Below are positions 33,109 to 51,850 of a DNA stretch of 64,000 bases, piece after piece (positions within the stretch are counted from its first letter, which is position 1; every line of letters starts with the position of its first letter). The translations under genes were made by a program, and so were the position numbers. The notes under the pieces are model-generated. The model was not told the origin of the DNA. It searched no databases and saw only the letters and a program-made list of their open reading frames with translations. The stretch comes from Rhodoplanes sp. Z2-YC6860 (lineage in GTDB: Bacteria; Pseudomonadota; Alphaproteobacteria; Rhizobiales; Xanthobacteraceae): NCBI RefSeq assembly GCF_001579845.1, contig NZ_CP007440.1, positions 2,936,029 through 3,000,028 of the forward strand, given 5' to 3'.

Positions 33109-33305
33109 GAGCATGTAGCAGCTCTCGAAGCGGCAATCGCATGTTGTCTCCCAGCAAGGAGGCAGCTTCGTGATCGGTGAACCAAATCGCGTGTCGGGCG
33201 TTCCACATCTGGGGCGGTCTGAGCAGACGCTGGCGGGAAGAGTTGAGGACGCGAACGGGGGTCCTTGTCTCGATCTTGCCGGCGGTTGCGTTCAGGGATT
33301 TGTTC

Positions 33306-35452
<2,147 letters not shown>

Positions 35453-35456
<4 letters not shown>

Positions 35457-38326
35457 ATCCGCAAACTCAAAGCTCGGCCAAGCCGCAGCAGGCAGCCGCC
35501 AATCCGCTCGCGGCGCTCCATCAGCACGGCCAGGCGCCATGGCTCGACTTCCTGGCGCGCAAGTTCGTCGCCGACGGCAGTCTCAAAACGCTGATCGAGC
35601 GCGACGGCGTGACCGGCGTCACGTCCAATCCGTCGATCTTCGAAAAGGCGATCGGCGGCAGCAGCGACTATGACGCGTCGCTCAGGAAATCGGAGGAGCA
35701 GGGCGACCGCGATGTGATGTCGCTCTACGAGGCGCTGGCCATCGAGGACATCCGGAACGCTGCGGACGTGTTGCTGCCGGTCTATAAAGCCACAAACGGC
35801 AATGACGGCTATGTCAGCCTCGAGGTGTCGCCCTATCTGGCGATGGATACCGACGCCACGATCGCGGAGGCGCAACGGCTTTGGCGCGCGGTGGGACGCG
35901 TCAATCTGATGATCAAGGTCCCTGCCACCGATGCGGGGCTGCCGGCGATCCGCCGTCTGATCGGCGAGGGCATCAACGTGAACATCACGCTGCTGTTCTC
36001 GCAGGATGTCTATCAAAAGGTCGTCGAAGCCTATCTGGCTGGATTGGAGGATTTGGTTGCCCATGGCGGCGATCCGAAGAAGATCGCGAGCGTGGCGAGC
36101 TTCTTCGTCAGCCGCATCGACGTCGCGGTCGACAAGCTGCTCGACGAGAAGATCAAAGCGGGCGCCAAGGACCTCGCGGCGCTGAAGGGCAAGGTGGCGA
36201 TTGCCAACGCCAAGCTCGCTTATCAGCACTACAAGCGCCTGTTCGCCGGGCCGCGCTGGGACAAGCTCAAGAGCAAGGGCGCGCGGACGCAGCGCCTGTT
36301 GTGGGCGAGCACGGGCACCAAGAGCAAGGAGTACAGCGACGTCCTTTATGTGGACGAGTTGATCGCCGACGATACCGTCAACACGCTGCCGCCGGCGACG
36401 ATGGATGCCTTCCGCGACCACGGCAAGGTCGCCGACAGCCTCGAAAAGAACATCGACGATGCCAAGAGCGTCATGTCGAAACTCGCGCAGGCGGGAGTCT
36501 CGATCGACGAGGTGACGCGGCAACTCGTCGACGAAGGCGTTCAGCTTTTTGCCGATGCATTCGACAAGCTGCTGGCCGCCGTCGCCCAGAAGCGCGCGGC
36601 CATCCTCGGCAAGAAGATCGACCCCCAGTCCTGGAAGCTCCCCGCCGATCTCGAAAAGTCCGTCAAGGCGACGCTGGAGCAATGGCGGGCGGACGGAAAG
36701 GTCCGTCAGCTTTGGACGGGCGACGCCAAGCTCTGGACCAACACGGACGAGGCCAAATGGCTCGGCTGGCTGGATATCGTCGCCGACGAATCCAAGCGGC
36801 TCGATCAGTTCAAGGCGCTTGCGAACGACGTTCGCCAGCAAGGCTTCACAGACGTGGTGCTGCTCGGCATGGGCGGCTCGAGCCTTGGTCCGGAGGTGCT
36901 TGCGGAGACCTTCGGCGTTCAGACCGGCGGTCCGCGTCTCTCGGTGTTGGATTCCACCGACCCGGCGCAAGTCCGCACGGTCGAGAGCAAGGTCAACCCG
37001 GCCCATACGCTCTTCATCGTGTCGAGCAAATCGGGCAGCACGCTCGAACCGAACGTGTTGAAAGACTACTTCTTCGATCGCGTCAAAACGGCTGTCGGCG
37101 CCGAGGCGGCCGGCTCGCACTTCGTTGCGATCACCGACCCCGGCTCAAGTCTCGAGAAAGAAGCGAAACGCGATCGTTTCCGGCACGTCTATTACGGCAA
37201 GCCCAACATCGGCGGACGCTATTCGGTGCTGTCTGCCTTCGGCGTCGCGCCGGCCGCGGCGATGGGTCTCGATCTCCCGCGTTTTCTCAATGCGGCAGAA
37301 CTGATGGTGAGGTCTTGCGGAATCCACGTTCCGCCCGCCGAGAATCCGGGCGTCGCTCTTGGCGTGCTCCTGGGCGCCGCCGCCAAGGCAGGCCGCGACA
37401 AGGTGACGATTGTTGCCTCCAAAGCCATCGCAGACTTTGGCGCATGGCTCGAGCAGCTGATTGCGGAATCCACCGGCAAGCACGGAAAGGGCGTCATTCC
37501 CGTCGATGCCGAGCCGCTGGCCGATCCCAAAGCCTACGGCAACGATCGGCTGTTCGCCTACCTGCGTCTGGCCTCGAACCCGGACGCAGCACAGGACAAG
37601 ATGATCGACGCCATCGAGGCCGCTGGGAATCCGGTGGTTCGGATCGAGCTCTCCGATCCCTATCAAATCGGGCAGGAGTTCTTCCGATGGGAAATCGCCA
37701 CGGCCGTTGCCGGTGCGATCATCGGGATCAATCCGTTCGATCAGCCGGATGTCGAAGCCAGCAAGGTGCAGACGAAGGAGCTGACATCGGCTTATGAGAA
37801 ATCGGGCTCGCTGCCGCCCGAGAAGCCGTTCTTTGAAGCCGGCGGCATCAGCCTGTTCGCCGACGCTCGCAACGTCGCAGCGCTCGGCAAGGCTTCGTCC
37901 CTGGTTGGTTATCTGTCGGCGCATCTCAAGCGGCTGCAGCCCGGCGACTATGCTGCGCTGCTGGCCTATGTCGAGCGCAACAAGCAGCACGGCGAAAGCC
38001 TGCAGGATATCCGCGTGATGATCCGCGATCGTCTGCGCATGGCAACCTGCGTCGGCTTTGGCCCTCGCTTTCTGCATTCCACGGGACAAGCCTACAAAGG
38101 GGGCCCCAACACCGGCGTCTTCCTCCAGATCACCTGCGACGACGCGGCGGACGTGCCGATCCCCGGCCGCTCCTACAGCTTCGGCGTGGTGAAGGCCGCG
38201 CAGGCGCGGGGCGATCTCCAGGTTTTGGAGCAGCGCCAGCGCCGCGCCTTGCGCGTGCATCTCGGCTCGCACGTCGCGGGCGGATTGGCCGCACTCAAGG
38301 ACGCCATTCGCCAGGCGCTGGAATAA
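35453..38326 (+). CDS. tal-pgi: Bifunctional transaldolase / glucose-6-phosphate isomerase
   Basis: The 957-residue fusion has transaldolase first (about 20-380), with TSNPSIFEKAI at 57-67, the Schiff-base lysine in MIKVPATDAG near 155 and FFVSRIDVAVD. Phosphoglucose isomerase follows (about 400-957), with GMGGSSLGPEVL near 471, SSKSGSTLEP near 523 and a late GxFLQIT segment. It links fructose-6-phosphate and glucose-6-phosphate pools with sedoheptulose in one polypeptide. Such fusions occur in Rhizobiales and some other phyla. It overlaps tkt by 4 nt and is followed by gnd after 27 bp with AGGAGA before its ATG. Confidence 0.95.
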
Positions 38327-38353
38327 GCCCAATCGGTTGTAGGAGATCTTCGA

Positions 38354-39337
38354 ATGCAGCTTGGCATGATTGGCCTCGGCCGCATGGGCGGCAACATCGT
38401 GCGCCGCCTCCAGCGGAAGGGCCACGAATGCGTCGTGTTCGATCAGAATGCCGGCGCGATCAGTGCTCTGACCAAGGAAGGTGCGACCGGCGGTTCTGAT
38501 CTGTCCGATCTGGTTCGAAAGCTCAAAGCTCCGCGCGCGGTATGGGTCATGCTGCCGGCCGGCAAGATCACCGAAGATGCCGTCGAGCAGCTCGGCAAGC
38601 TGCTCAGCAAAGGCGACATCATCATCGACGGCGGCAATTCGCTCTACAAGGACGATGTCCGCCGCGCCCTCGCGCTAAAGGAAAAAGGCATCCACTACGT
38701 GGACTGCGGGACCAGCGGCGGCGTCTGGGGACTCGAGCGCGGTTACTGCCTGATGATCGGCGGCGACAAGGCGGTCGTCGATCATCTCGACCCGATCTTC
38801 GATGCGCTCGCGCCCGGGAAGGGCGATGTGCAGCCCACGCCGGGACGTGAAAAACGGGATGCGCGCGTGGAGCGCGGGTACGTCCACTGCGGTCCGAGCG
38901 GCGCCGGCCGCTTTGCGAAGATGGTCCACAACGGCATCGAGTACGGCTTGATGCAGGCCTATGCCGAGGGCTTCAACATCCTCCGGCGCGCCTCGTCGGA
39001 TGCGCTGCCGCCCGAGCATCGCTTTTCATTCGATGTGGCCGATATCGCCGAAGTCTGGCGCCGTGGCAGCGTCATCGGTTCGTGGCTGCTCGATCTCACG
39101 TCGATTGCGTTGGCGCGCGATCCGGACCTCGCCGGCTATTCCGGCGTTGTCGACGATTCCGGCGAAGGCCGCTGGACCGTGATGGCGGCGATCGAGGAGG
39201 CCGTGGCGGCCGACGTGCTCTCGGCGGCGCTCTATGCCCGGTTCCGGTCGCGAGACCGTGAAAGCTTTGCCGACAAGCTGTTGTCGGCGATGCGTCATGA
39301 GTTCGGGGGACATGTCGAGATCAAGGCGGCTGAGTGA
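38354..39337 (+). CDS. gnd: 6-phosphogluconate dehydrogenase, decarboxylating, short NAD-type
   Basis: The 327-residue enzyme has the nucleotide-binding motif [15 protein letters not shown] (5-19), [10 protein letters not shown], the substrate loop [20 protein letters not shown] and the catalytic lysine region [22 protein letters not shown]. At about 330 residues it is the short GndA/YqeC-like form, usually NAD-linked, rather than the 470-residue NADP form. It converts 6-phosphogluconate to ribulose-5-phosphate and CO2. It has a good RBS (AGGAGA) and overlaps zwf by 4 nt (GTGA). Confidence 0.94.
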
Positions 39338-40860
39338 ACATGGCAGATCGCGTTCAGCCAGCGCCGCCCTGCGTGCTCGTGATTTTCGGTGCGGCGGGTG
39401 ATCTCACCAAGCGGCTGCTTGTGCCCGCGCTCTACAATCTTCGGCGCTCGAAGCTGCTGCCGGAAGAATTCTCGATCGTTGGAGTTGCACGCGCCGAAAA
39501 GGATGACGAAGCCTTTCGGCGGGACTTCGACGAAAGCATGCGCAAGTTCTCCAGCGCCTCGGAGAACGAAGCCGACTGGAAGTGGCTCCGGGAACGCATG
39601 TCCTATCTCAAAGGCGACCTCGAGGACGCCGAAACATATCAAGCGCTCGGCAAACGGCTGGTCCAAAGCGGCGGCAGGGCCGGGCCGAGCGGCAACGTTC
39701 TTTTCTATCTGGCGACGCCGCCGGCGGTTTTCGCACCGGTGATCGGCCAACTCGGTAGGGCGGAACTGCTTCGGGAGCAGGACGGGAACTGGCGTCGCGT
39801 CATCATCGAGAAGCCGTTCGGCACCGATCTGCGCTCCGCCCAGGAGCTCAATCGGCAGATTTTATCGGTGATGTCCGAGAACCAGATCTACCGGATCGAT
39901 CATTATCTCGGCAAAGAAACCGTCCAGAACATCATGGTGTTCCGGTTCGGCAACGGCATCTTCGAGCCGCTGTGGAATCGCAACCACATCGACCATGTCC
40001 AGATCACGGTCGCCGAGACGGTCGGCGTGGAGACGCGCGGCAAGTTTTACGATGCCACCGGCGCCTTGCGCGACATGGTGCCCAATCATCTGTTTCAGCT
40101 TCTCGAGCTTGTGGCGATGGAGCCGCCGACCTGCTTCGCGGCCGATGCGGTGCGGACCGAGAAGGGCAAGGTGCTCGAAGCCGTGCACCCGTTCGGCAAG
40201 GCCGATGCGCTGCGCAACGTCGTGCGCGGCCAGTACGGCTCGGGCGCCGTCAACGGCAAGGCCGTGAAGGCATATCGGGAGTCGCCCGAGGTCGCGCCGG
40301 ATTCAGCAATGGAGACCTACGTTGCGTTGAAGGTCATGATCGACAATTGGCGGTGGGCCGGGGTGCCGTTCTATCTGCGCACCGGCAAGGCGCTTGTGAC
40401 CCGTCGCAGTGAGATCGTCATCCGATTCAAACAGGCGCCTTTCGCATTGTTCCGGGACACGCCGGTCGAGCGGCTCACACCGAACGATCTTGTCCTTCAC
40501 ATTCAACCGGAGGAGGGCGTGACGCTCAGCTTCGGCGCAAAGAAGCCCGGCCCGAAGGTGACCATGGGCGGCGTCCAAATGCGGTTCGACTACAAGGACT
40601 ATTTCGAGGCCGCGCCCAGCACCGGCTACGAAACGCTGGTTTACGATTGCATGACCGGCGATACGACGCTGTTCAAACGCGCCGAGGAGATCGAGGCGGG
40701 CTGGCGCATCGTTCAGCCGCTGCTCGATGCCTGGTCGAAAGATCGGAACGAGCCCGCGGCATATCCCGCCGGTTCGGAAGGTCCGGCTGAGGCGAATGAG
40801 CTCATGGCGCGCGATGGGCGCCAGTGGCGCCCGCTCGATCAAAACGGGAAGAAGTCGTGA
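39334..40860 (+). CDS. zwf: Glucose-6-phosphate 1-dehydrogenase
   Basis: The 508-residue enzyme catalyses the first oxidative pentose-phosphate step. Visible are [20 protein letters not shown] (nucleotide site), [10 protein letters not shown], the active-site [13 protein letters not shown] near 187-199, and [14 protein letters not shown]. Length matches the family. The GTG at 39334 forms a GTGA overlap with the gnd stop; ATG 39340, two codons later, is equally possible. Its stop overlaps the start of the HAD gene by 4 nt. Confidence 0.95.
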
Positions 40861-41729
40861 CGGCTCAGCGCACACCGGCAGGCCATATCGTCGCGGTGGT
40901 GTCCGATGTCGACGGCACCTTGCTGCGGACCGACAAGTCGCTGGCTCCAAGAACCGTCGAAGTCGTCGAGGAGCTGCGCCGCGCCGGTGTCAAATTCGCG
41001 ATCGTCAGCAGCCGGCCGCCCCGCGGCATGACGGCGGTGATCGATCGTCTGGGCATCACAACGCCGATCGCCGGCTTCAATGGCGGCATCGTCGCGTTGC
41101 CGGATCTGACGGTCATCGCGAGCCACCTCATCGAGCCGGACGTGGCCCGGCACGCCGTTGACGCCATCGGAGCCGCGGGCGCGAGTGCCTGGGTTTTCTC
41201 CGGTCGCGATTGGTACGTCCGCGACCGCAACGGCCCGCGTGTCCCCTTCGAGCAGCGAACCGTTGGCTTCGGCCCCGTGGCCGTTGACGATTTCGCGGCT
41301 GTCATTGGCACGGCCGCGAAGATCGTCGCGGTGAGCGACGATCCGGCGCTGCTGAACAAGCTGCAGGATGAAGTCCGGGTCTCGCTGTCGGGATGCGCTC
41401 ATATCGCGCGTTCGCAGTCCTACTATCTCGATTTCACCCACCCGTTGGCCAACAAGGGCCACGCCGTGCAGGAGATCGCAGCCCGGTTGGGCGTATCGCC
41501 CGCCAATGTCGCGGTCATCGGCGATGGCGAAAACGATATCGACATGTTCTCGAAGGCCGGACTCAGCATCGCGATGGGCAATGGGGATGCCGACGTTCAG
41601 CAGGCGGCCGATTTCGTGACGGGACGAAACGACGAAGACGGGGCCGCGGCGGCCCTCGAATGGTTCGTCCTGCGCGGCCAGCGGACGCCGATGGTCGGCG
41701 GAGGGGCACCGCGGAAGGTCGCGCAATGA
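40857..41729 (+). CDS. HAD-superfamily (Cof-type) phosphatase inside the pentose-phosphate operon
   Basis: The 290-residue protein has HAD motif I DVDGTLL (Asp17/Asp19), motif II serine in [10 protein letters not shown], motif III lysine near [16 protein letters not shown] and motif [11 protein letters not shown], with a C2-type cap as in Cof/YbiV sugar phosphatases. GTG 40857 lies in a GTGA overlap with zwf and follows GGGAAGAAG. Cytoplasmic. Its place between zwf and pgl suggests it removes phosphate from a sugar-phosphate side product or overflow intermediate of this pathway (inference). Confidence 0.9.
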
Positions 41730-42454
41730 CCGCCAAGCCGGCCGTGGATCATCGTGTGTTTGAAAACGCCGAAGCGTTGGCACATGACGCCGCCGAATGG
41801 CTTTGTGCCAAGGCGGTCACCGCCAGGGGCCGCTTTGCTGTCTGCTGTTCGGGCGGCTCGACGCCGCGGCGTTTGTACGAGGTCCTGGCGCAGCCGGCGA
41901 TCGCCAAGCGTTTTCCTTGGGATCGGGTCCACTGGTTCTGGGGCGATGAGCGCTTCGTCCCGTATGACCATCCTGACAGCAACTATCGAATGACGCGGAT
42001 GGCGCTCCTGTCTCAGGTGCCTGTGCCCGAAGCCAACGTCCATCCGATCCCGACCGAGCATCTCAGCCCTGAGCAGGCGGCCGGTGCTTACGAAAAAGAG
42101 CTGAAGGCCTTTTATGGCGCCGATGTTCTCGATCCGGCGAGGCCGCTGTTCGACGTGATGCTGCTGGGCATCGGCGATGACGGTCACACCGCTTCGCTTT
42201 TCCCAGGCCATCCGGCGTTGGATGAAGAGCAGCGCTGGGCGGTGGCGGTGGTCGGGGCCAAGTCGGAAGCGCGCATCACGCTGACCTACCCTGCGCTCGA
42301 TAGCAGTCGCGATGCTGTATTTCTTGCGGTCGGTAGCGACAAGCGATCTGCGGTTCAAAGGGCCAAGGCCGGCGACCGCGCCTTGCCGTCAGCCCGGATC
42401 GAGCCCGCTGGTCGGCTCCATTGGTTTACCGATCGCGCCGCCGCGCCGCTTTAA
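41726..42454 (+). CDS. pgl: 6-phosphogluconolactonase
   Basis: The 242-residue DevB-type lactonase shows CCSGGSTPRRLYE, RVHWFWGDERFVPYDHPDSNYRM and the catalytic GIGDDGHTASLFPGHPAL. It hydrolyses the lactone made by Zwf, supplying Gnd. ATG 41726 overlaps the HAD stop by 4 nt. Its length matches the family. The order here (gnd, zwf, HAD, pgl) does not follow reaction order but the tight overlaps suggest stoichiometric translation. Confidence 0.94.
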   Translation: MTAKPAVDHRVFENAEALAHDAAEWLCAKAVTARGRFAVCCSGGSTPRRLYEVLAQPAIAKRFPWDRVHWFWGDERFVPYDHPDSNYRMTRMALLSQVPVPEANVHPIPTEHLSPEQAAGAYEKELKAFYGADVLDPARPLFDVMLLGIGDDGHTASLFPGHPALDEEQRWAVAVVGAKSEARITLTYPALDSSRDAVFLAVGSDKRSAVQRAKAGDRALPSARIEPAGRLHWFTDRAAAPL

Positions 42455-42470
42455 GGCTGGGATTTTCGAT

Positions 42471-43169
42471 ATGGCAAGGAAGAGCAAAGGTTCGAGGCGG
42501 CGAATCCTTGTGATCGATGTCGGCGGAACTCACATCAAGTTCGAGGTCAGCGGTCAGCGAGAGCGTCGCGAGTTCAACTCCGGGCCGCAGATGACCGCAA
42601 AGAGAATGGTGAGCGAGGTCAAGCGCCTAACGAAGGACTGGGACTATGATGTCCTGTCTATTGGATATCCCGGTCTGGTGGTGCGGGATCGGGTGGTCGC
42701 CGAGCCGCACAACCTCGGTCCCGGTTGGGCCGGCTTCGATTTTCAGAAAGCATTCAAGCGCCCGGTCAAGCTCCTTAACGACGCCGCGATGCAGGCGCTC
42801 GGCAGTTACGACGGCGGCCGCATGCTGTTTCTTGGCATTGGGACCGGCCTCGGCTCGGCGATGATCGTCGACGGTGTGATTGAACCCATGGAGCTCGCGC
42901 ATCTGCCGTACCGCAAGGGCAAGACCTTCGAAGACTATGCCGGTGTAAGAGGGATTCGGCGCCTGGGTAAGCGGAAATGGCGCAAGCACGTCCTCGATAT
43001 CATCAATCGTCTGACTGCGGCTCTGCAACCCGAGTACGTTGTGTTGGGAGGCGGAAATGCCGACAAGATCGGAAAGCTGCCGCGAGGCGTACGGTTGGGG
43101 GGCAACGACAACGCTATCAAGGGCGGCTACAAGCTTTGGGACAAGGATAGAACGGGCGCGCGATCTTAG
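42471..43169 (+). CDS. ppgK: Polyphosphate glucokinase-like ROK kinase
   Basis: The 232-residue ROK-fold kinase has RILVIDVGGTHIKFEVSG (phosphate loop), LNDAAMQALGSYDGGRMLFLGIGTGLGSAMIVDG and ELAHLPYRKGKTFEDYAG. The GGTHIK and LGIGTGLGSA forms with short length resemble PpgK, which phosphorylates glucose with polyphosphate and/or ATP. The classical CXCGXXGC zinc motif of many ROK proteins is absent, as in PpgK. It closes the pentose-phosphate operon, 16 bp after pgl, with GGGA before the ATG. It would feed glucose-6-phosphate to Zwf. It is convergent with the MFS gene (88 bp). Confidence 0.85.
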   Translation: MARKSKGSRRRILVIDVGGTHIKFEVSGQRERREFNSGPQMTAKRMVSEVKRLTKDWDYDVLSIGYPGLVVRDRVVAEPHNLGPGWAGFDFQKAFKRPVKLLNDAAMQALGSYDGGRMLFLGIGTGLGSAMIVDGVIEPMELAHLPYRKGKTFEDYAGVRGIRRLGKRKWRKHVLDIINRLTAALQPEYVVLGGGNADKIGKLPRGVRLGGNDNAIKGGYKLWDKDRTGARS

Positions 43170-44682: not shown

Positions 44683-44733
44683 GGCCCGTCTCATACCAGC
44701 CGGCCCCGCCCGGCAGTGGTGCGCAGCCCCGTG

Positions 44734-44748
44734 TTAACGCGAAATTAA
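44734..44748. promoter_or_regulatory. CtrA-type binding site (TTAA-N7-TTAA)
   Basis: TTAA-CGCGAAA-TTAA, followed by CC, matches the full CtrA consensus TTAA-N7-TTAAC. It lies 53 bp upstream of the coiled-coil ATG and 51 bp upstream of the MFS ATG, in a short AT-rich island. CtrA is the essential cell-cycle regulator of alphaproteobacteria. By position it could act on either gene; the orientation of the TTAACC half points to the coiled-coil gene. Sequence match only. Confidence 0.55.
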
Positions 44749-44800
44749 CCATAATTTTCACACATTGGGCCTTGGTTCGGCGCACCTGAAGAAATCAGCA

Positions 44801-47032
44801 ATGAAGCAACCGAATGCGCGGCCTGCGGGCAAGCTCCCCGCAGCGACTCGCAGCTTGAACAGTCCGAGAGGCAGGCTTCTTGACCTCGACGACGATATAT
44901 TCCTTCCTGCCGATCCTCGTCCGGTCGTGCGCCAGCCGGCGCCCGTGTTGGCCCCGCGCGTGGATGGCTTCTCCAGGACCGCAAGAAGCGAAATGGCCGG
45001 CGCGGCCCCGATCGAGCCGCCGCGAGCGAAGGCAGGTCCGTCCGCGGCCGAAGTCCGGGTCGTACGCCTTGAAAAGACAATCGAGGAGCAGTCGCAAAAG
45101 CTGTCCTCCTGTCACGATCTGATTCTCGAGCTGAACACCAAGCGGGATCAGCAGACGCACGATCTGCAGTCGGCGCGCCAAGCCATCAAGGCTCTTGAAC
45201 AGTCCTTGATAGGCTTGCGCGGCGCAGCGTCAAAGCGCGATTCGGAGCTGGTTGCGGCGATCGAAAAACTCAACTTGTCCGAAAAAGAACAGCTTGCGTT
45301 GCAGGCGCAGTTCCACAGCACGCATCGCGATTACATGCAGGTGGCGGATCGGCTGCTCGTCGCCGAAACTACGCTGAACGATCAGAGCGCCACCGCGGCT
45401 GCGGCTCAGGATGCGATTGATCGCTCGAACGCGGAGCTTGAACTCCACAAATTTCAGATCGTTGCGCTTGAGACAGAGCTGAAGAGCACGCAGGAGCAAC
45501 GAAGAGAGCTTCGCGAGCAGGCGGCGCAGCTTCAAAGCGAGCTCGGCGAACAGACGGCCCGGCTCGGCGAGCAAGAGAGCCTGTTTCGAGACAAGCTGGG
45601 TGAGCGGGAGGCTTGGTTTCAAAGCGAGCTGGCTGAGCAGACGACTCGGCTCGGCGAGCAAGAGAGACTGTTTCGAGGCAAGCTGGACGAGCAGGAGACG
45701 CTTTTTCGAGACAAGCTAGGTGAGCGGGAGGCTTGGTTTCAAGGCGAGCTGGCTGAGCAGACGACCCGGCACGGTGATCAAGAAGCTCGGTTTCAATGCA
45801 AGCTGGCAGCGCAAGAGGCTCTGTTTCGAAGCAAGCTGGGTGAGCGGGAGGCTTGGTTTCGAAGCGAACTTGCTGAGCAGACGACCCGACACGGTGAGCA
45901 AGAGGCTCTGTTCCGAAGCAAGCTGAGTGAGCAGGAGGCTCAGTTTCAAAGCGAGCTGGCTGAGCAGACGACTCGGCTTAGCGAGCAAGAGAGCTTGTTT
46001 CGAGGCAAGCTGGTTGAGCAGGAGACCCTGTTTCGACACGCGCTGGGGGAGGGGGAGGCTTGGTTTCGAAGCGAACTTGCTGAGCAAACGACACGACACG
46101 GTGAGCGAGAGGCTCTGTTCCTAAGCAAGCTGGCTGAGCAGGAGGCTCAGTTTCGGAGCGAACTGGCTGAGCAGAACACCCATCTCGGCGAGCAAGAGGC
46201 TCTGTTTCGAAAGGCGCTGGGTGACCAGGAAAGATTGTTCCGAAGCAAGCTGGGTGAGCAGGAGGCTCAGTTCCGAAACGAGCTTAGTGAGCGAACGACA
46301 CGCTTCCAAAAGGAGATCGAGATCGCCAAGGCGATCAGCCAAGAGAGTATCCGCCAAGCAACGGCTGTCGCGCTGGATCGCGCTGCGCTTCAACAACGAT
46401 GCGAGGAACTCTCCCGCGCCATCAATCTCCTGCAGGCGGCGCGTCGCAGGATGAACTCTGAGCTCCAGATTAACGCCGGCGATCTCGGGCAGCTTCACGC
46501 TGACATTTCCGAAATGAAAGAATCGCACAACGCGATTGCAAAAAAATTCGAGCAGGCCGAAACCAAGCTCAGCGCGATGCGTCTGCATGTCGAGAAGCTT
46601 GAGACCTCACACTCGATACTTGCCAGGTACGACACGGCCTTGGTTGATTCCGCTGCAGCGAATGGGAGCACTTCTGAGCAGGCCCGCGAACTTCAGAAGT
46701 CCAAGAATGAAATTTTCGAGTTGCTGGAAGCCTATTTTGAAGACCTCCCGGCTTCGGATCGTCGGGTCGCTTCAAGCCAAGGGATGATTGCAAGCCAAGA
46801 GGTCATTTCCGGTGCAGACTTGGTTTCGGGCCAAGGCCTCCTGGCGACTGACAACCCGCTCCCGGCTGAGAGGGCCAAAGAGATCCAGGAAGGGCAGCCC
46901 GCGGACGGCTCGCGCGACAAAATCCCCGTCGCCGAATTTCAGTTCGCAGAATTGTCGTTCCTCTCTCGCGACGAGCAAGGCGCCGATATCATCAAGCTGG
47001 AGACCGCGGCGCGCGGCAAGAAGGTCGCCTAG
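44801..47032 (+). CDS. Large coiled-coil protein with 11/7-residue tandem repeats
   Basis: The 743-residue protein has no signal or membrane segment. A disordered N-terminus (1-75) includes LLDLDDDIFLPADPRP. Next comes a coiled coil (about 85-247). Residues 248-501 are an unbroken array of 18 eleven-residue units (consensus LGEQEALFRSK) and 8 seven-residue units (LAEQTTR). A second coiled coil (502-640) follows, then an acidic tail ending QFAELSFLSRDEQGADIIKL. The architecture is that of a filament or scaffold protein. I recognise no family. ATG 44801 is chosen because the upstream frame lacks other good starts; its SD is weak. A CtrA-type site lies upstream, and no gene follows for 600 bp. 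Confidence 0.85.
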   Translation: MKQPNARPAGKLPAATRSLNSPRGRLLDLDDDIFLPADPRPVVRQPAPVLAPRVDGFSRTARSEMAGAAPIEPPRAKAGPSAAEVRVVRLEKTIEEQSQKLSSCHDLILELNTKRDQQTHDLQSARQAIKALEQSLIGLRGAASKRDSELVAAIEKLNLSEKEQLALQAQFHSTHRDYMQVADRLLVAETTLNDQSATAAAAQDAIDRSNAELELHKFQIVALETELKSTQEQRRELREQAAQLQSELGEQTARLGEQESLFRDKLGEREAWFQSELAEQTTRLGEQERLFRGKLDEQETLFRDKLGEREAWFQGELAEQTTRHGDQEARFQCKLAAQEALFRSKLGEREAWFRSELAEQTTRHGEQEALFRSKLSEQEAQFQSELAEQTTRLSEQESLFRGKLVEQETLFRHALGEGEAWFRSELAEQTTRHGEREALFLSKLAEQEAQFRSELAEQNTHLGEQEALFRKALGDQERLFRSKLGEQEAQFRNELSERTTRFQKEIEIAKAISQESIRQATAVALDRAALQQRCEELSRAINLLQAARRRMNSELQINAGDLGQLHADISEMKESHNAIAKKFEQAETKLSAMRLHVEKLETSHSILARYDTALVDSAAANGSTSEQARELQKSKNEIFELLEAYFEDLPASDRRVASSQGMIASQEVISGADLVSGQGLLATDNPLPAERAKEIQEGQPADGSRDKIPVAEFQFAELSFLSRDEQGADIIKLETAARGKKVA
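45542..46303 (+). repeat. In-gene tandem repeats, 120-bp and 87-bp units
   Basis: The units are 40 residues (7+11+11+11) and 29 residues (7+11+11), in the order 29-40-40-29-40-29-40 plus a final 7. The copies starting at 45601 and 45721 are close to identical at the DNA level over 60 bp (TGAGCGGGAGGCTTGGTTTC in both, and again at 45841), which indicates expansion by unequal recombination or slippage. Later copies are more diverged. The reading frame is kept throughout. Confidence 0.93.
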
Positions 47033-47660
47033 CCTGCGAACTCCTCATCGCTGGCGGTCTTGCCGTTTTTCAGCGACGTGCGATTTCGCTTTGCATTCTC
47101 GCAAATCACGAGTAGACGCGATTCTGCCTCGCTCGTTGAGGGCGTCGTCTAGAGACGTCTATTTGGCGGAGCGGGGTGTGGCGCCTGCAGGCGTGGCTCG
47201 TGACCACGTCCCAGGGTGTGAGGTCATTGTCCGTCCCCGATGAGGGGGCCGCCTTCAGTGGCAGGGCGCGGTCGGGTGAAAGCGGGCGCAAATGCCCCCT
47301 GGAGCATGGTGGGTGAGAGCCCAGCCTGTCCGATCGAATCTCGAACGGTGGCCTCGCAACAAATCGCCACAGTGGAGCGCCGGGAGGCGAGCGGGCCTGA
47401 TCGCAAAGGTCCGCGGGCGCCCTCGCAAAGCGCCCAGCTATCTGCGCCGTCTCGGCGCTCCGCTCCCTCACTCATGTGAGGGGAAGGAAAAGAGAGAGGC
47501 GCTGGCCCCGCGCCTGATCTGAAGGGGCCGATGAATCACGCCTGGATGAATGCTGAGGTGACGCGTTTAGGAGCGCGGGCTGTTTGACAAGTGAATCTGC
47601 AGAACGAGCGCCGCTTCCTTCGGGAGCGGCGCTGAACGTACGGGACGTGCGCTGTCGTGC
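47033..47660. other. Gene-poor stretch after the coiled-coil gene
   Basis: About 630 bp without a convincing gene. Short frames exist on both strands (for example around 47240-47479) but their translations are rich in Pro, Arg, Ser and Ala in all frames, start without an SD and look like non-coding GC-rich sequence. There is a GGCCCC/GGGGCC hairpin near 47504-47528 and a stronger one at 47607-47633. No promoter, repeat pair or RNA family could be recognised. It may be a decayed region or hold an untranslated RNA. Confidence 0.5.
47607..47633. other. Strong hairpin with TTCG tetraloop
   Basis: AGCGCCGCTTCC-TTCG-GGGAGCGGCGCT can form a 12-bp stem (one G-T pair) closed by a TTCG tetraloop, among the most stable small RNA hairpins. 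No T-run follows on either strand, so it is not a standard intrinsic terminator. It lies downstream of a possible 24-residue peptide gene on the minus strand and may protect its 3' end. Confidence 0.55.
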
Positions 47661-47735
47661 TCAGAAATATCGAAACAAGCAAAGCACATTCGCGAAATTA
47701 GCGACCAGCAGTGCGACGGCGACCACCCGGACCAT
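47661..47735 (-). CDS. Possible 24-residue hydrophobic peptide
   Basis: A minus-strand ATG at 47735 follows AGGAGAGAGCC, a strong and well-spaced RBS. The frame encodes a single hydrophobic segment: VRVVAVALLVANFANVLC and then a LFRYF ending. It could be a one-helix membrane peptide. A stable hairpin lies just downstream of the stop. The only evidence is RBS plus hydrophobicity; the same ATG is internal to a longer open frame with no start signal. Confidence 0.33.
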   Translation of the reverse strand: MVRVVAVALLVANFANVLCLFRYF

Positions 47736-47895
47736 GGCTCTCTCCTGCGCGGAGAGAAGTGGGGCGATTCCATCCCAAGAGTCTCGCGAAATGTTTTCGC
47801 CGGGCGCGGGCGGTTGGGCATGGACTCCGGCGAGCGCACCGCCACTGGCTTCCACCCAGCCGATTCGGCAAGACGCGCGGGCCGGCGTTGCCGGG

Positions 47896-48309
47896 TTACT
47901 TCGCGTCCGGCGTCGTCAGCGTGGTTTCGCTCGCATCGAGCACGAACACCGCGAGCAGCTTGGCTGGCTCCGTGGCGCTCGCGTTCTCGCTCACCCGATG
48001 GTGCGCACCGGGATTTTCCGACCAGCCTTCGCCGGCGCGATAGACCTTCACCGGCTGGTCGTCGACCTGGCTGCGCACGCTGCCCGAGATCACGTGGGCG
48101 TAAATGAAGGCCGACGCCGCGTGATGGTGGCTCGGAGACTTCGCGCCGGGCGGATAGTCGACGACGACGGCAACGAGGTGCTTGCCCGGGATGTTGGGGA
48201 TCGCAGACTTGAACGCGGGTGCCGAGCTCGACCGCGGCGCGTCCTGCGCATGCGCCACGGACGGCGCAGACGCCAGCAAAGCCAGAGCGATGAGGGGCCT
48301 GAGAATCAT
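47896..48309 (-). CDS. Exported small cupin-domain protein
   Basis: The 137-residue protein has a signal peptide (ILRPLIALALLASAPSVAHA, cleavage after AHA near 21) and a cupin fold: motif 1 with SHHHAASAFIYAHVISG and motif 2 with GEGWSENPGAHHRVSEN. The histidines would bind one metal. Homologues of similar length are annotated only as cupin proteins; substrate unknown. GGAGG lies nine bases before the ATG. Upstream is a GGTGCGGC/GCCGCACC hairpin (48353-48379). It resembles, but is not closely similar to, the cupin at 60710-61204. Confidence 0.85.
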   Translation of the reverse strand: MILRPLIALALLASAPSVAHAQDAPRSSSAPAFKSAIPNIPGKHLVAVVVDYPPGAKSPSHHHAASAFIYAHVISGSVRSQVDDQPVKVYRAGEGWSENPGAHHRVSENASATEPAKLLAVFVLDASETTLTTPDAK

Positions 48310-48595
48310 ATGAAATGTCCTCCCTTGAGACTCGCTTGAGTCGTCAGTCGATGGTGCGGCGATGCGATCGTGCCGCACCTCGCGAGCGCGTTTCTTATCG
48401 AGACAAATGAACGCCTTAAGAAACTATCACGGCCCCGTCGCTGCCGCGTCTTTGATGTCAGCCCGCGACAACGGTGGAAAACCTGACGGACTTGTCCCCA
48501 TTAAATTTTGATTGACCGAGCCGAATCGGGCCAACTGTCGCTGTCCGGGGCGTACTCGCCCTCCTGTGCGCCCCATAACCTAAAGGGGAAACTGC

Positions 48596-48652
48596 ATGGC
48601 AAAGAAAGCCAAGAAAGCGAAGAAGGCGAAGAAGGCCCGTAAGAAGAAGTAG
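48596..48652 (+). CDS. 18-residue all-basic peptide (KKA repeats)
   Basis: ATG 48596 follows AAAGGGG at eight bases and opens a complete frame MAKKAKKAKKAKKARKKK, 13 of 18 residues being Lys or Arg. It ends at TAG 48650 and is followed eight bases later by a perfect 12-bp terminator-like hairpin. RBS, complete frame and terminator make a compact transcription unit. The sequence recalls the Lys/Ala tails of bacterial histone-like proteins, so nucleic-acid or polyphosphate binding is a reasonable guess. It is far below usual gene-calling limits. Confidence 0.55.
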   Translation: MAKKAKKAKKAKKARKKK

Positions 48653-48660
48653 AGAGTTTA

Positions 48661-48695
48661 TCGGCCTCGTTGCGCGGGAACGCCAACGAGGCCGA
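48661..48695 (+). terminator. Terminator-like hairpin after the basic peptide gene
   Basis: TCGGCCTCGTTG and CAACGAGGCCGA form a perfect 12-bp stem around an 11-nt loop. ATCTTCTT follows, a modest pyrimidine tail. It begins nine bases after the TAG of the 18-residue peptide gene. Confidence 0.65.
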
Positions 48696-49077
48696 ATCTT
48701 CTTGGCCTCGCTGTTGCGACGATCGCGCAGCCGCCGGGTGACGTGATCGAATAGTCGTCTCGCTTGTGGAGGCCGACAAAGAGCGCGGGCAGGATTTGCC
48801 CGCGCTCTTGTATTCAACGTGTGGTCTCGGCGCCGAAAATGAAACGCCCCGCCTCGGGGGAGACGGGGCTGGTCGTGGAGCAAGCTTGGGGAAATCAGGG
48901 GGGCTTCATTCCCTGCTCCGCGACACGAAAGACAAGATGGCGAGGCGCTTGCGCGTTTGACAGGACGTGCGTCATTTTGCGCGAAGCGGCTGGTGAGCCG
49001 CGTCAACACGGTCGGGAATTTCTCTCAATCGCACCGGTCAAATCGTCACAGCGACCATCCGCGCGGCGTCGCACTCC
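48696..49077. other. Gene-free stretch with stable hairpins
   Basis: About 380 bp with no convincing coding frame. It contains a perfect 13-bp stem AAGAGCGCGGGCA / TGCCCGCGCTCTT with a 5-nt loop at 48779-48809; on the minus strand this stem is followed by TTT, so it could end minus-strand transcription. A shorter GCCCCG/CGGGGC hairpin is at 48846-48869. The spacing of two hairpins about 70 bp apart would suit a small RNA, but no promoter could be assigned. Confidence 0.45.
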
Positions 49078-49275
49078 TTGTGCAGTGCTTTATTTTCCGG
49101 GTCGGGAAGCCTGTTCGCTTTCTTGGCGCTCTTCGTCCTGGTGTTCGTCATTGCCTGGAAGCTCGCCGTGACGATCACCGAACAGTATTCGTCCGCGGGT
49201 GAGGCCGAAGCCGGTCCATCGACCCGAACAGCTTTCCATTCGATGACAGCAAACGAAGTCGCGCCGCGTCCTTAA
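49078..49275 (+). CDS. Possible 65-residue single-pass membrane protein
   Basis: The frame encodes one strong membrane helix (GSLFAFLALFVLVFVIAWKL, about 10-29) followed by a short hydrophilic tail with ITEQYSSAGEAEAGP. The start would be a TTG at 49078 without an obvious SD. The coherent helix and positively charged Lys after it support a real protein; the weak start argues against. It is convergent with the 59-residue gene at 49304. Confidence 0.35.
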   Translation: MCSALFSGSGSLFAFLALFVLVFVIAWKLAVTITEQYSSAGEAEAGPSTRTAFHSMTANEVAPRP

Positions 49276-49303
49276 TGACGCGGCCTGCACTCTGCCTGAC
49301 ACT

Positions 49304-49483
49304 TCAGCGATTCGTTGCGGTCGCAGGCGGGACGCCCGCTTGGGCCCGCTCGGCGAATTCTAGCTTGGCCATCCTGAGCAGATGGGCTCCAACCTCGAGC
49401 CCGTCCCGCTCGGCGAGGGCGGCGAGCTGGTCGCACATGGTCGCCAAGTACTCTGCCGTTGTGTTCGGTGCCTTACCCGTCAT
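49304..49483 (-). CDS. Small conserved helical protein
   Basis: The 59-residue protein reads TGKAPNTTAEYLATMCDQLA, then ALAERDGLEVGAHLLRMAKLEFAE. It is two amphipathic helices. The pattern AEYLATMCDQLAxLAxxDGLExxxxLLxMAxLE is one I associate with small orphan proteins of Bradyrhizobium-type genomes, function unknown. ATG 49483 has AGAGG eight bases upstream. It is divergent from the 65-residue gene at 49546, 62 bp apart. Confidence 0.62.
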   Translation of the reverse strand: MTGKAPNTTAEYLATMCDQLAALAERDGLEVGAHLLRMAKLEFAERAQAGVPPATATNR

Positions 49484-49545
49484 GCGAAAGCCTCTTCCCC
49501 GTCGTGGCGACAGGATAACACCCGTCCGCGGGAGGAAATTCCCAA

Positions 49546-49743
49546 ATGGCCGATGACAGCAAAATTGTTGCGATCGCGGATTTCGCGCATTTGCAGTCAA
49601 AAGCGGCAGCGGTGCCCGAGACTCTCCCCGAGGAGGGCTTGCGGCTGCTCCGGGCCTTTCTCCGCATCCGCGACCCCCGGCGCCGCACCTGGCTGGTCCA
49701 GCAGTCCGAGCAGATCGCCAATCTCCAGTCGACGATGCGATAG
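49546..49743 (+). CDS. Small protein with XRE-regulator-type C-terminal motif, no HTH
   Basis: The 65-residue protein has a strong RBS (GGAGG ten bases before ATG). Its second half, PEEGLRLLRAFLRIRDPRRR followed by TWLVQQSEQI, matches the C-terminal region of the XRE regulator at 50910-51320 (SEGIALVKAYMSIRDTKTRR) and the 75-residue protein at 51331-51558. It has no helix-turn-helix. It could be an interaction module for the regulator. No family name is known to me. Confidence 0.65.
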   Translation: MADDSKIVAIADFAHLQSKAAAVPETLPEEGLRLLRAFLRIRDPRRRTWLVQQSEQIANLQSTMR

Positions 49744-49933
49744 CGCGGCGCCGGTATCGTTCGCGTCAATCGACGCACCGCAATTTTAGTCTATCGAGGT
49801 GCCGCGTGGTGTGTGCCATTCGACACGGCTGCGCGGTGTCGGCATCACGACACTGTGCTTATCCACAAGATGCCCTGGATTTTGTCGGCCACGCGACTAC
49901 GGTTGCGCGCATTGGGAATGCGGCGTTTAGGGC

Positions 49934-50179
49934 GTGACTGTGTATCGGCTTGAAGATCACGAATTGATTTCGTTGTTGGGTCGCCGCGTGCGGGTTCGCA
50001 AAGGCGCGCACACCTTCGAGGGCACGCTGATCGGACCGAGCGAAAAGAAATTTCCGCGCGGGCCCAATCGCACCGCCTACGGCTGCCTTATGGAAGGCGA
50101 GGACTTCCAGCTCGAATTCGCCTGGTGGGATTGGAAGGTCATGCCGATCTCAAGCCCGCAGCCCATCGCCGCGGAATAG
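49934..50179 (+). CDS. Small beta-rich hypothetical protein
   Basis: The 81-residue protein begins with GTG 49934 (TVYRLEDHELISLLGRRVRV) and looks like a small beta barrel: short strands around GTLIGPSEKKFPRGPNR and an aromatic QLEFAWWDWKVMP. An SH3- or Sm-like fold is possible. No SD of strength is seen. It is convergent with the DUF6496 gene (28 bp). Unknown function. Confidence 0.55.
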   Translation: MTVYRLEDHELISLLGRRVRVRKGAHTFEGTLIGPSEKKFPRGPNRTAYGCLMEGEDFQLEFAWWDWKVMPISSPQPIAAE

Positions 50180-50207
50180 CTTCAGGGGCACCGGTCGGGC
50201 TTTTTCG

Positions 50208-50411
50208 TCAGCGTCGCTTGCGCGGCACCTTTTTGCCCTTCTTGCGCGCTTTCGACAGGCCGATCGCGATGGCCTGCTTGCGGCTTTTGACCTTGCCGCC
50301 TTTGCCGCCGCGGCCGCTCTTGGCGGTTCCCCGCTTGTAACGCCGCATCTCGCTTTCGACGTCTTTTCCAGAGCTGCGTGAGTATTTCCGCTTTCGACGC
50401 TTTTTCGCCAT
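50208..50411 (-). CDS. DUF6496-type small basic protein
   Basis: The 67-residue Lys/Arg/Gly-rich protein has the family core KYSRSSGKDVESEMRRYKRG followed by AKSGRGGKGGKVKSRKQAIA and IGLSKARKKGKKVP. About 40% of residues are basic. The RKQAIAIGLSKARKKG segment is the recognisable signature. Function is unknown; nucleic-acid binding is likely from charge. GGAGG is six bases before the ATG, one of the best RBSs here. Confidence 0.82.
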   Translation of the reverse strand: MAKKRRKRKYSRSSGKDVESEMRRYKRGTAKSGRGGKGGKVKSRKQAIAIGLSKARKKGKKVPRKRR

Positions 50412-50468
50412 TCAATCCTCCTCGGCTTTTGCCAGGAACTTCGTCACCGGCGTTCTGGTTGTCTGGGC

Positions 50469-50621
50469 ATGCACAAGCACCATCCAAAACCGGTTCGCAG
50501 CCGTTTGATCATCCGCCGGCGTATTCGCCGCGACACCGAGGAAGACGACGGCGCTTTGGACGACGCGATCCTCATTCTCGGCGGCGACGACAAACCGACG
50601 GCTCCGGAATCCAGCAGCTAG
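50469..50621 (+). CDS. Possible 50-residue charged protein
   Basis: An ATG at 50469 opens a frame with a His/Arg-rich first half (HKHHPKPVRSRLIIRRRIRR) and an acidic second half (DTEEDDGALDDAILILGGDD). The charge split is not random-looking, and the space is otherwise empty between two real genes. No SD is visible, so support is weak. Confidence 0.25.
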   Translation: MHKHHPKPVRSRLIIRRRIRRDTEEDDGALDDAILILGGDDKPTAPESSS

Positions 50622-50675
50622 CCCGGCGCTGGAACAAGACAGCACCGTTCAATTGGTTCCCGACACCTTGCGAAG

Positions 50676-50891
50676 ATGCCCGGCAAGCGCATCCAATTCG
50701 ACGACGAGACCCTGACGGCCCTCAACCAGTTGGCCGACGACAGGATGCAGACATTTCAGGAGCTGGCCGAGGAGGCGTTTTCCGACGTGCTGAAGAAACA
50801 CGATCGGCCCGTTGGCTTGCGCGATGCGCTGCGCAAAAGCGCCGGCCAGTCGGCGACAGTGCACCGGTTGCCGGCCAGGAAAAGCCGATGA
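50676..50891 (+). CDS. Small ribbon-helix-helix-like protein
   Basis: The 71-residue protein reads PGKRIQFDDETLTALNQLAD, then DRMQTFQELAEEAFSDVLKK. A short basic strand followed by two helices is the layout of RHH DNA-binding proteins such as CopG/Arc types. The basic tail is RLPARKSR. It is convergent with the XRE regulator, 18 bp between stops. No toxin is adjacent. The SD is poor (CCTTGCGAAG). Confidence 0.6.
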   Translation: MPGKRIQFDDETLTALNQLADDRMQTFQELAEEAFSDVLKKHDRPVGLRDALRKSAGQSATVHRLPARKSR

Positions 50892-50909
50892 AGTTTCCGG
50901 AGCGACTGT

Positions 50910-51320
50910 TCAGGCGCGAGGCGAAATCTGCTCGACCAGTTGTACGATGCAGCGGCGGGTCTTTGTATCCCGGATGCTCATGTAGGCCTTGACCAGGGCA
51001 ATGCCTTCGGATGACGCCAGGAATTCCGAAACGAACATTGAGCGGGACTCGGTGCTCTTGATCTCGCTGTCGGCGCCTTCAAAGAAAAACGACACCGGCA
51101 CCTGAAGCACGTCGGCAATATGTTGCAGCCGCGACGCGCCGATCCGGTTGGTGCCTTTTTCGTATTTTTGCACCTGCTGGAAGGTCAGCCCGAGTTTGTC
51201 GCCGAGTTCGGTTTGCGTCATGTCGAGCATCAGCCGCCGCATGCGCACACGCGCGCCGACGTGACGGTCGATCGGATTCGGCTTCTTTTTTTTCGGTGCG
51301 GTCGACAGGGACTTGGGCAT
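50910..51320 (-). CDS. XRE-family transcriptional regulator
   Basis: The 136-residue repressor-type protein has a Lys-rich N-terminus, a Cro/CI helix-turn-helix (21-75: VGARVRMRRLMLDMTQTELG, then LGLTFQQVQKYEKGTNRIG) and a C-terminal helical motif (105-131) with SSEGIALVKAYMSIRDTKTRR. VSFFFEGADS joins the two. This is the common Rhizobiales XRE type. The C-terminal motif recurs without HTH in two small neighbouring proteins. It lies 10 bp downstream of one of them on the same strand, so they likely share a transcript. Confidence 0.88.
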   Translation of the reverse strand: MPKSLSTAPKKKKPNPIDRHVGARVRMRRLMLDMTQTELGDKLGLTFQQVQKYEKGTNRIGASRLQHIADVLQVPVSFFFEGADSEIKSTESRSMFVSEFLASSEGIALVKAYMSIRDTKTRRCIVQLVEQISPRA

Positions 51321-51330
51321 GGTTTTCTGA

Positions 51331-51558
51331 TCAGTGCGCCGCGGTGTCTAGGCCGGCAAAATGTTCGACCAGTTCGAGCAGCCAGGCGCGTCTGCGGCTG
51401 TCGTCCACGCGACCGAATGCCTTGAGGAGACGTACGTTCTCTTCCGCGCTCGGGCTGTCCGTCCCATCGAGGCAAGCGGCCTGTGCTGCCGCGCGGCTTC
51501 GACGTTGAGCAACTGCCGAGCTGCCGTGAGCAACAATTCGCAGCTTGTTATGGGGCAT
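51331..51558 (-). CDS. Small protein with XRE-type C-terminal motif, co-transcribed with regulator
   Basis: The 75-residue protein has an Arg/Ala-rich first half and the motif AEENVRLLKAFGRVDDSRRR followed by AWLLELVEHFAGL (39-71). The motif is shared with the downstream XRE regulator and the 65-residue protein at 49546. An HTH is lacking. The start ATG 51558 has GGCGAG some ten bases upstream. With 10 bp to the next gene, it probably forms an operon with the regulator and may modulate its oligomerisation (inference). Confidence 0.55.
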   Translation of the reverse strand: MPHNKLRIVAHGSSAVAQRRSRAAAQAACLDGTDSPSAEENVRLLKAFGRVDDSRRRAWLLELVEHFAGLDTAAH

Positions 51559-51850
51559 TGGACTATCTCGCCTTTTGTACTGCTATTTGCTGTGACCGCA
51601 GTCGTTGCATTCGAGACTTTGGGCATCGTGCAGCAAATGAGACGCGGTATTCCAAACTCCAATAACCCCGAGACGTTCGGGGGCCTGCCTTATGGCGATG
51701 TGTTTGAATTTCCGAAGCCATCCGCCGGAAGTCGTTTGACCCGTATTCACGCCGGCTCGCATCCCCCCGGAAACGATTTGCTGGCTTGAAAACGTTATTT
51801 TCAATCAACCACAGGCGTTTGCGCAAGTCATTAAAGACATGTCATAATTT

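Follow-up and report, generated by a model that had tools for sequence, protein, structure and literature searches.

What kind of protein is encoded by a 743-residue reading frame that matches no family above a curated cut-off and whose rod is interrupted by an array of coiled-coil repeats of two lengths? The gene lies at positions 44801 to 47032, on the forward strand, of a 64,000-nucleotide stretch of the Rhodoplanes sp. Z2-YC6860 genome (contig NZ_CP007440.1), hereafter the window. It opens with ATG, although a TTG 12 codons upstream is a possible alternative start. We lean, with modest confidence, toward reading its product, here called the rod protein, as a fast-changing intermediate-filament-like cytoplasmic scaffold, probably under cell cycle control, in which a straight segment was inserted in this lineage. 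The likeness to intermediate filaments is of architectural kind only.

Repeat plan and history of the array

The array spans residues 248 to 501 (45542..46303). Units beginning with L or H were read as hendecads when F stood at position 8 and otherwise as heptads; under this rule exactly one complete parse exists, comprising 18 hendecads and 8 heptads in super-units of 29-40-40-29-40-29-40-7 residues. This is the plan that an initial annotation had derived from the letters, and none of 20,000 residue shuffles of the array could be parsed. The 29-residue super-units (7+11+11) lie at 45542..45628, 45869..45955, and 46076..46162, the 40-residue super-units (7+11+11+11) at 45629..45748, 45749..45868, 45956..46075, and 46163..46282, and the closing heptad (residues 495 to 501) at 46283..46303, all on the forward strand. 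Hendecad positions 5 and 8 are invariant (E and F, 18 of 18 each), position 1 is L in 15 copies and H in 3, position 4 is Q in 13, and position 7 is L in 10, W in 4, Q in 3, and R in 1. Self-identity of the array reaches 0.44 at a lag of 29 residues, 0.57 at 40, 0.62 at 69, and 0.68 at 109, compared with about 0.10 in shuffles (2000 for each lag). At these lags and at 11 it stands roughly 13 to 24 standard deviations over the shuffles, and at lag 7 it is at background.

The array grew by in-phase duplication. Tandem Repeats Finder reported periods of 33, 87, 120, and 207 bases, equal to 11, 29, 40, and 69 residues, and super-units 5 and 6 agree with super-units 2 and 4 at 87.4% of bases. The product of these duplications has been retained under protein-level constraint: among hendecad pairs the ratio of nonsynonymous to synonymous change is 0.39 in frame but 0.92 and 0.93 when the strand is read in its two alternative frames (codons bearing stops being left out), the ratio of the proportions of nonsynonymous and synonymous differences (pN/pS) is 0.47 over all 18 repeat codon columns (0.25 to 0.81, bootstrap over codon columns), and the heptad LAEQTTR is kept in five of its eight copies despite synonymous drift. 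The 29/40 plan can arise without selection for straightness, since hendecads that pair out of step and cross over unequally would lengthen or shorten the array by whole steps; because the DNA displays duplication of this in-phase kind, the regularity of the plan can be explained without invoking design.

Geometry of the rod and predicted head-rod-tail layout

Fourier analysis of the residues L, I, V, M, F, and W gave best periods of 3.495 for residues 81 to 247, 3.635 for the array, and 3.50 for residues 502 to 640, none of them matched in 300 shuffles; the two pieces of the first flank are weaker when taken alone, their values being attained by 7% (81 to 160) and 34% (160 to 247) of shuffles. 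The mean pitch of the array is 3.629 (254 residues over 70 turns), and a helix free of distortion makes one turn every 3.63 residues (PMC9858780). The array should therefore be straight and its flanks left-handed, so that the coiled coil is predicted to run left-handed, straight, and left-handed along the rod. The initial annotation had expected a mix averaging 3.63 between ordinary coiled coils, and both expectations agree with the measured values. Its explanation, that right-handed hendecads and left-handed heptads cancel, holds for the straight outcome, yet hendecads by themselves already run nearly straight, with an excess of +0.03 (PMC9858780). For this reason the heptads would fine-tune the pitch rather than reverse a strongly right-handed coil.

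The Leu residues of hendecad position 1 and the Phe residues of position 8 form a single hydrophobic stripe along the array; position 7 forms a second patch about 100 degrees from position 8. Alanine makes up 9% of the array, and 20 of the 24 array alanines sit 90 to 150 degrees from position 1. Dimeric hendecads are described as needing small core residues, alanine above all (PMC9858780), and the invariant Phe in the core therefore hints at an oligomer of more than two chains.

The array is flanked by heptad coiled coils at residues 82 to 247 (45044..45541) and 502 to 647 (46304..46741). The head, residues 1 to 81 (44801..45043), carries 14 prolines in its first 80 residues and has a basic start (six K/R and no D/E in residues 1 to 27), and the tail, residues 648 to 743 (46742..47029), is mostly disordered by prediction. 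Prolines are confined to residues 4 to 80 and 650 to 709, with none in 81 to 649. The tail had been called acidic, which is correct in a mild sense (18 D/E and 11 K/R in residues 641 to 743) and an overstatement if strong acidity was meant; the accompanying claim that no membrane segment is present agrees with a highest 19-residue Kyte-Doolittle mean of only 0.78.

AlphaFold2 models were made from single sequences as single chains. The array alone was predicted as one unbroken helix (residues 2 to 253 of 254) with a mean predicted local distance difference test score (pLDDT) of 86.7. The whole-protein model placed helices at 82-158, 161-317, 328-522, 527-620, 625-647, and 651-661, with weak breaks at 313-328, 515-527, and 620-624, and left the head (1-77) and tail (652-743) under a pLDDT of 50. 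Taken with the proline pattern, these models predict the nonhelical head, helical rod, and nonhelical tail that characterize the bacterial intermediate-filament-like class, head-rod-tail being the stated layout of intermediate filaments (PMC6599971).

A relative in another genus

One relative was found. It is a 298-residue frame (L049:8709-9605) in genome G156, from another genus of the family, and it aligns with residues 74 to 150 of the rod protein (45020..45250), the junction of head and rod, with 40% identity across these 77 residues (E 3e-10). This alignment has a local score of 151, whereas the highest score was 73 when residues were shuffled freely (500 times) and 90 when they were shuffled only within heptad columns (again 500 times). 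Prolines in the relative occur only at residues 2 to 60, and its rod has a period of 3.515 (matched by 0 of 300 shuffles); it has neither array nor tail, its gene neighbors differ from those of the rod gene, and it gave no Pfam match. Because this protein keeps the junction and a heptad rod without the array, we read the array as a probable lineage-specific insertion.

The relative emerged from a search with the first 130 residues against 390 other genomes of the family, where 18 weak matches (E 2.4e-5 to 0.0097) included one real relative (L018, genome G156). Six others (L014 to L017, L019, and L022) lie antisense to a dehydrogenase gene, identified by Pfam Iso_dh for L016, L019, and L022 and by eye for L014, L015, and L017; two (L020 and L021) gave no protein match, and nine further places gave no match at E 0.001. 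The whole protein had one match among 60 relatives (G034, E 7.8e-6), in frame with an AAA_27 ATPase coiled coil, and none among 396 other genomes of the order. The C-terminal third (residues 501 to 743) matched nothing in 10 other genomes of the genus and 390 other genomes of the family; in those 390 family genomes the C-terminal 123 residues had two matches with E near 0.004, which run antisense to genes for phage prohead protease and capsid. The repeat profile had no match in 285 other family genomes, and pattern scans of genome contigs and of viral contigs yielded none that was confirmed. In plasmids, tblastn found no match to the relative and, for the rod protein, a single match, in Streptomyces (24.9% identity, E 1e-4), which is named as a pentapeptide repeat protein and which we set aside by judgment. 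Among the matches listed, the candidates scored per genome numbered at most 17 for the whole protein against the 60 relatives, 7 for the C-terminal third, 11 for the C-terminal 123 residues, 10 for the first 130 residues, 2 for the whole protein against the 396, and 16 for the repeat profile; more relatives may exist, since so few were scored.

The initial annotation had proposed comparing orthologues for the number and order of 29- and 40-residue units; no counterpart of the array was found among the genomes searched. For the rod protein, Pfam, NCBIfam, and PADLOC yielded no match above cut-off or at E 0.01. Against the sequences of the PDB, the whole protein likewise had no match at E 0.01, and the array alone had two (E 0.052 and 1.6). 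In the open literature searched, to which most subscription journals do not belong, no proteobacterial protein with this repeat plan is described. The protein had been proposed as an undescribed cytoskeletal or polar scaffold. No characterized filament family was matched, and no clear homology to a filament or tape-measure protein appeared in Pfam, NCBIfam, PADLOC, Rod_CreS, or the phage records. The evidence from orthologues is thin, the array is without counterpart, and a polar or filament role is a proposal.

A CtrA-type site before both genes

The motif TTAA-N7-TTAAC precedes both the rod gene and the gene of its relative. It is the CtrA consensus obtained by chromatin immunoprecipitation sequencing in Hyphomonas (PMC7200025), and the CtrA motif is described as conserved across the Alphaproteobacteria (PMC9437464). 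In the window it occurs on the forward strand as TTAACGCGAAATTAAC at 44734..44749, with an other-strand match at 44733-44748, and is the sole TTAA-N7-TTAA of the 64 kb (mean in shuffles, 0.01). It stands in the 106-base gap between the rod gene and a divergent major facilitator superfamily (MFS) gene, 51 bases from the ATG and 39 from the MFS start; TTAACCAT, at 44745-44752 in the same gap, is not significant alone (0.25 expected). In 47 other loci (542,221 bases) the motif was counted twice. One copy, at L049:8550-8564, is the sole one in the 18 kb around the relative and lies in the 969-base gap before its gene, 143 bases from the TTG start. Given these positions, the putative CtrA site probably links transcription to the cell cycle.

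The other copy (L034:6596-6610) belongs to a 400-kb sample of the window's own genome, where it is the second TTAA-N7-TTAA, outside frames of at least 150 amino acids and close to a frame of 257 residues that starts with a hydrophobic stretch.

Genomic context

Upstream of the rod gene lies a pentose-phosphate cluster (33177-43169) encoding transketolase, a transaldolase with a phosphoglucose isomerase part, 6-phosphogluconate dehydrogenase, zwf, a HAD hydrolase, 6-phosphogluconolactonase, and a ROK protein, followed by the divergent MFS gene; downstream are cupin, helix-turn-helix (HTH), and LysR genes. Within the cluster, 35453-38326 is a single 957-amino-acid frame that matches transaldolase and then part of phosphoglucose isomerase. 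The GC content of the rod gene is 0.593, compared with 0.596 to 0.662 in the five preceding genes, and its third-position GC is 0.672, compared with 0.711 to 0.791; the following HTH (0.584) and LysR (0.599) genes share the low GC. The region 47033-51786 is gene poor, with few convincing genes (the cupin gene, an 81-residue frame, and the HTH gene), and is possibly an accessory region.

Neither the transporter neighbor (at E 1e-60) nor the cupin neighbor (at E 1e-20) had a match in the 10 other genomes of the genus, and the absence of the rod gene from these genomes may therefore reflect distance. At E 1e-30 the ROK neighbor had relatives in 3 of 36 other genomes. Downstream of the ROK relative in G014, frames of at least 130 amino acids resemble pentose-phosphate genes (named by eye), and a rod gene is absent. 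The G006 contig ends near its ROK relative, and in the G040 stretch (L025) a tblastn scan gave no match to the rod protein. A 216-residue charged helical frame with repeats downstream of ROK in G006 (L024:110-757) is unrelated to the rod protein (BLASTP E 0.99) and has no Pfam match.

The sequence GANTC is scarce in the window (134 occurrences compared with 323 in shuffles) and in the 400-kb sample (710 compared with 1317 expected from base composition), which would fit an alphaproteobacterium bearing CcrM; CTNAG is rarer still in the sample (425 compared with 710). Among 779 plasmid records that match the nearby HTH protein, 576 belong to Rhizobium, Sinorhizobium, or Agrobacterium, which points to a likely rhizobial host; the zwf matches are more mixed, the second-best record being cyanobacterial (59.8%, compared with 61.0% for Bradyrhizobium), and among the matches listed the MFS records all stay under 33%.

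Weighing the explanations

Several observations weigh against an intermediate-filament-like scaffold. There is no sequence kinship between the rod protein and any filament protein. The whole-protein model is of low confidence (mean pLDDT 61.9, predicted template modeling score 0.31) and interrupts the array helix at 318-327; this break seems to come from folding one long chain by itself, because the array alone was modeled as one continuous helix. The core stripe is thin, with polar residues at its edges (position 4, mostly Q, and position 5, E), and the invariant Phe makes a dimer in the manner of FilP or Scy doubtful. Only one relative was found, sharing only 77 residues, and its first 27 residues are not purely basic (four K/R and two D/E), contrary to a conserved membrane-binding start. 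As for the CtrA-type site, that of the relative lies farther from the start codon than that of the rod gene, that of the window could serve the divergent MFS gene, and the latter was noticed post hoc, its occurrence before the relative's gene then serving as an independent check that it passed. A promoter scan found no sigma-70-like sites near the rod gene, and terminator-like sites were at chance level.

An array without any counterpart and a sole relative similar over a short range would also be expected of a fast-changing coiled coil without a specific architectural role, expanded by recombination under a loose constraint to stay helical and soluble, its straight pitch being a by-product of in-phase hendecad duplication. 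We regard this as unlikely, though deserving appreciable weight: the duplication signature, the GC content below that of the five preceding genes, and the lack of a rod gene near the ROK relative in the one readable stretch (G014) all suit it. The low GC, however, is unremarkable beside the HTH and LysR genes, and a pN/pS below 1, the persistence of LAEQTTR, and the CtrA-type site before both genes argue against it. The 11-residue repeats themselves raise a different thought. Apolipoproteins, perilipins, and synuclein are 11-residue-repeat helices that lie on membrane or lipid surfaces, and the stripe at positions 1 and 8 and the second patch at position 7 might suggest an amphipathic helix of this sort rather than a bundle. 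We consider this improbable, since the flanks are coiled coils with a period of 3.5, no such family was matched in Pfam at E 0.1, and the array is 22% L, I, V, M, F, and W and 36% charged residues, with a mean hydrophobic moment (0.219) not above those of the flanks (0.229 and 0.244).

Weak profile matches underlie two further proposals. A PHROG tape-measure family (E 4.4e-5) and NCBIfam LysB (E 0.0041, below cut-off) would point to an origin in phages or mobile elements, for instance as a tail tape measure protein, but the best PHROG stretch (521-639) falls in plain coiled coil outside the array, tblastn with the rod protein or its relative found nothing in 50,697 phage records, and viral contigs gave no confirmed match. 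The Pfam-matched neighbors are metabolic, regulatory, or transport genes, with no phage gene among the 16 of 18 tested window genes that have Pfam matches, and the proposal is very improbable. We give scarcely any credence to an SMC- or Rad50-like arm without ATPase heads. It accounts for the NCBIfam SMC matches (E 2.6e-4 and 0.031), which are far below cut-off (18.9 bits compared with 567), for the G034 match noted above, and for the SMC arms among the assorted helical hairpins that the whole-protein model retrieved in a Foldseek search of the PDB (1152 in all, one of which reached E 0.001 or better); yet Pfam finds no ATPase domain in the 743 residues, and any long coiled coil gives such matches.

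A model for the rod protein

If the rod protein is an intermediate-filament-like scaffold, a disordered, proline-rich head with a basic start (residues 1 to 81), which may attach to the membrane, would be followed by a helical rod that lacks proline and spans about 566 residues, and then by a disordered tail. The rod would measure about 84 nm if it is one continuous helix, some 38 nm of it contributed by the array. Identical rods would associate along their single hydrophobic stripe, made up of the position 1 Leu and position 8 Phe residues; the flanks would coil left-handed, and the mix of units in the array, by placing the stripe at 3.63 residues per turn, would create a straight segment that serves as a stiff spacer. 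In-phase duplication of 29-, 40-, and 69-residue blocks would alter the length of that segment, and the CtrA-type site before both genes would probably tie transcription to the cell cycle.

A bolder extension, which we offer as speculation and think rather doubtful, is that the two proteins represent a CtrA-timed family of alphaproteobacterial scaffold rods in which the junction is kept and the rod is re-engineered by lineage. Here a straight ruler would have been inserted, whose 29- and 40-residue modules (8 and 11 turns) recombine in phase, stepping the length without altering the pitch or the face presented.

A clean array that has two unit lengths, a supercoil that cancels out, and duplications whose history can be read offers a good natural test of how coiled-coil rods alter their length at constant pitch. 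The CtrA-type site common to two otherwise diverged rod genes suggests that this bacterial group has cell cycle scaffolds evolving too fast for ordinary searches, which could be found by promoter plus architecture.

Comparison with known systems

Crescentin (CreS) of Caulobacter resembles the rod protein in having a head of about 80 residues with a basic start, a long rod, and a tail; its layout is 1-79, 80-444, and 445-457, with membrane attachment through the first 27 residues (PMC10873595). The crescentin rod, however, is heptad based, with one stutter and 365 residues (PMC10873595), whereas the rod here exceeds it by about 200 residues and hendecads make up 18 of the 26 array units. The rod protein does not belong to the crescentin family: the profile Rod_CreS (PF19220) had no match at E 0.001 in the window's genome, and the same search was positive in 6 of 14 control genomes, including Caulobacter, one of them over the cut-off. 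Membership in the DivIVA/GpsB/FilP/Scy group, marked by an RGYDxxEVD motif before the coiled coil (PMC9858780), is likewise rejected, since the motif is absent and DivIVA was not among the Pfam matches at E 0.1. Ccrp of Helicobacter pylori, likened here by description only, are coiled-coil scaffolds for cell shape that are unrelated in sequence to others (PMC4460556).

The one relative found is the 298-residue protein of G156, with which the rod protein shares the head-rod junction, a proline-bearing head followed by a proline-free heptad rod, and a CtrA-type site upstream, and from which it differs in its array, tail, and neighbors. In repeat architecture the nearest systems are Scy and FilP of Streptomyces, intermediate-filament-like members of a DivIVA-like family, likened here by description only, which are coiled coils of the bacterial cytoskeleton that combine heptads with long runs of hendecads (PMC9858780). 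Residues 248 to 501 of the rod protein form just such an extended hendecad coiled coil mixed with heptads; its core is a Leu/Phe stripe rather than an alanine-rich one, its head is rich in proline, and two unit lengths occur in one array. The 51-residue repeat of Scy, as Walshaw is said to have described it in 2010, consists of one heptad and four hendecads. This rule of a heptad plus hendecads is the nearest known plan, and the super-units of the rod protein obey it at two other lengths, 29 being 7 + 2 × 11 and 40 being 7 + 3 × 11.

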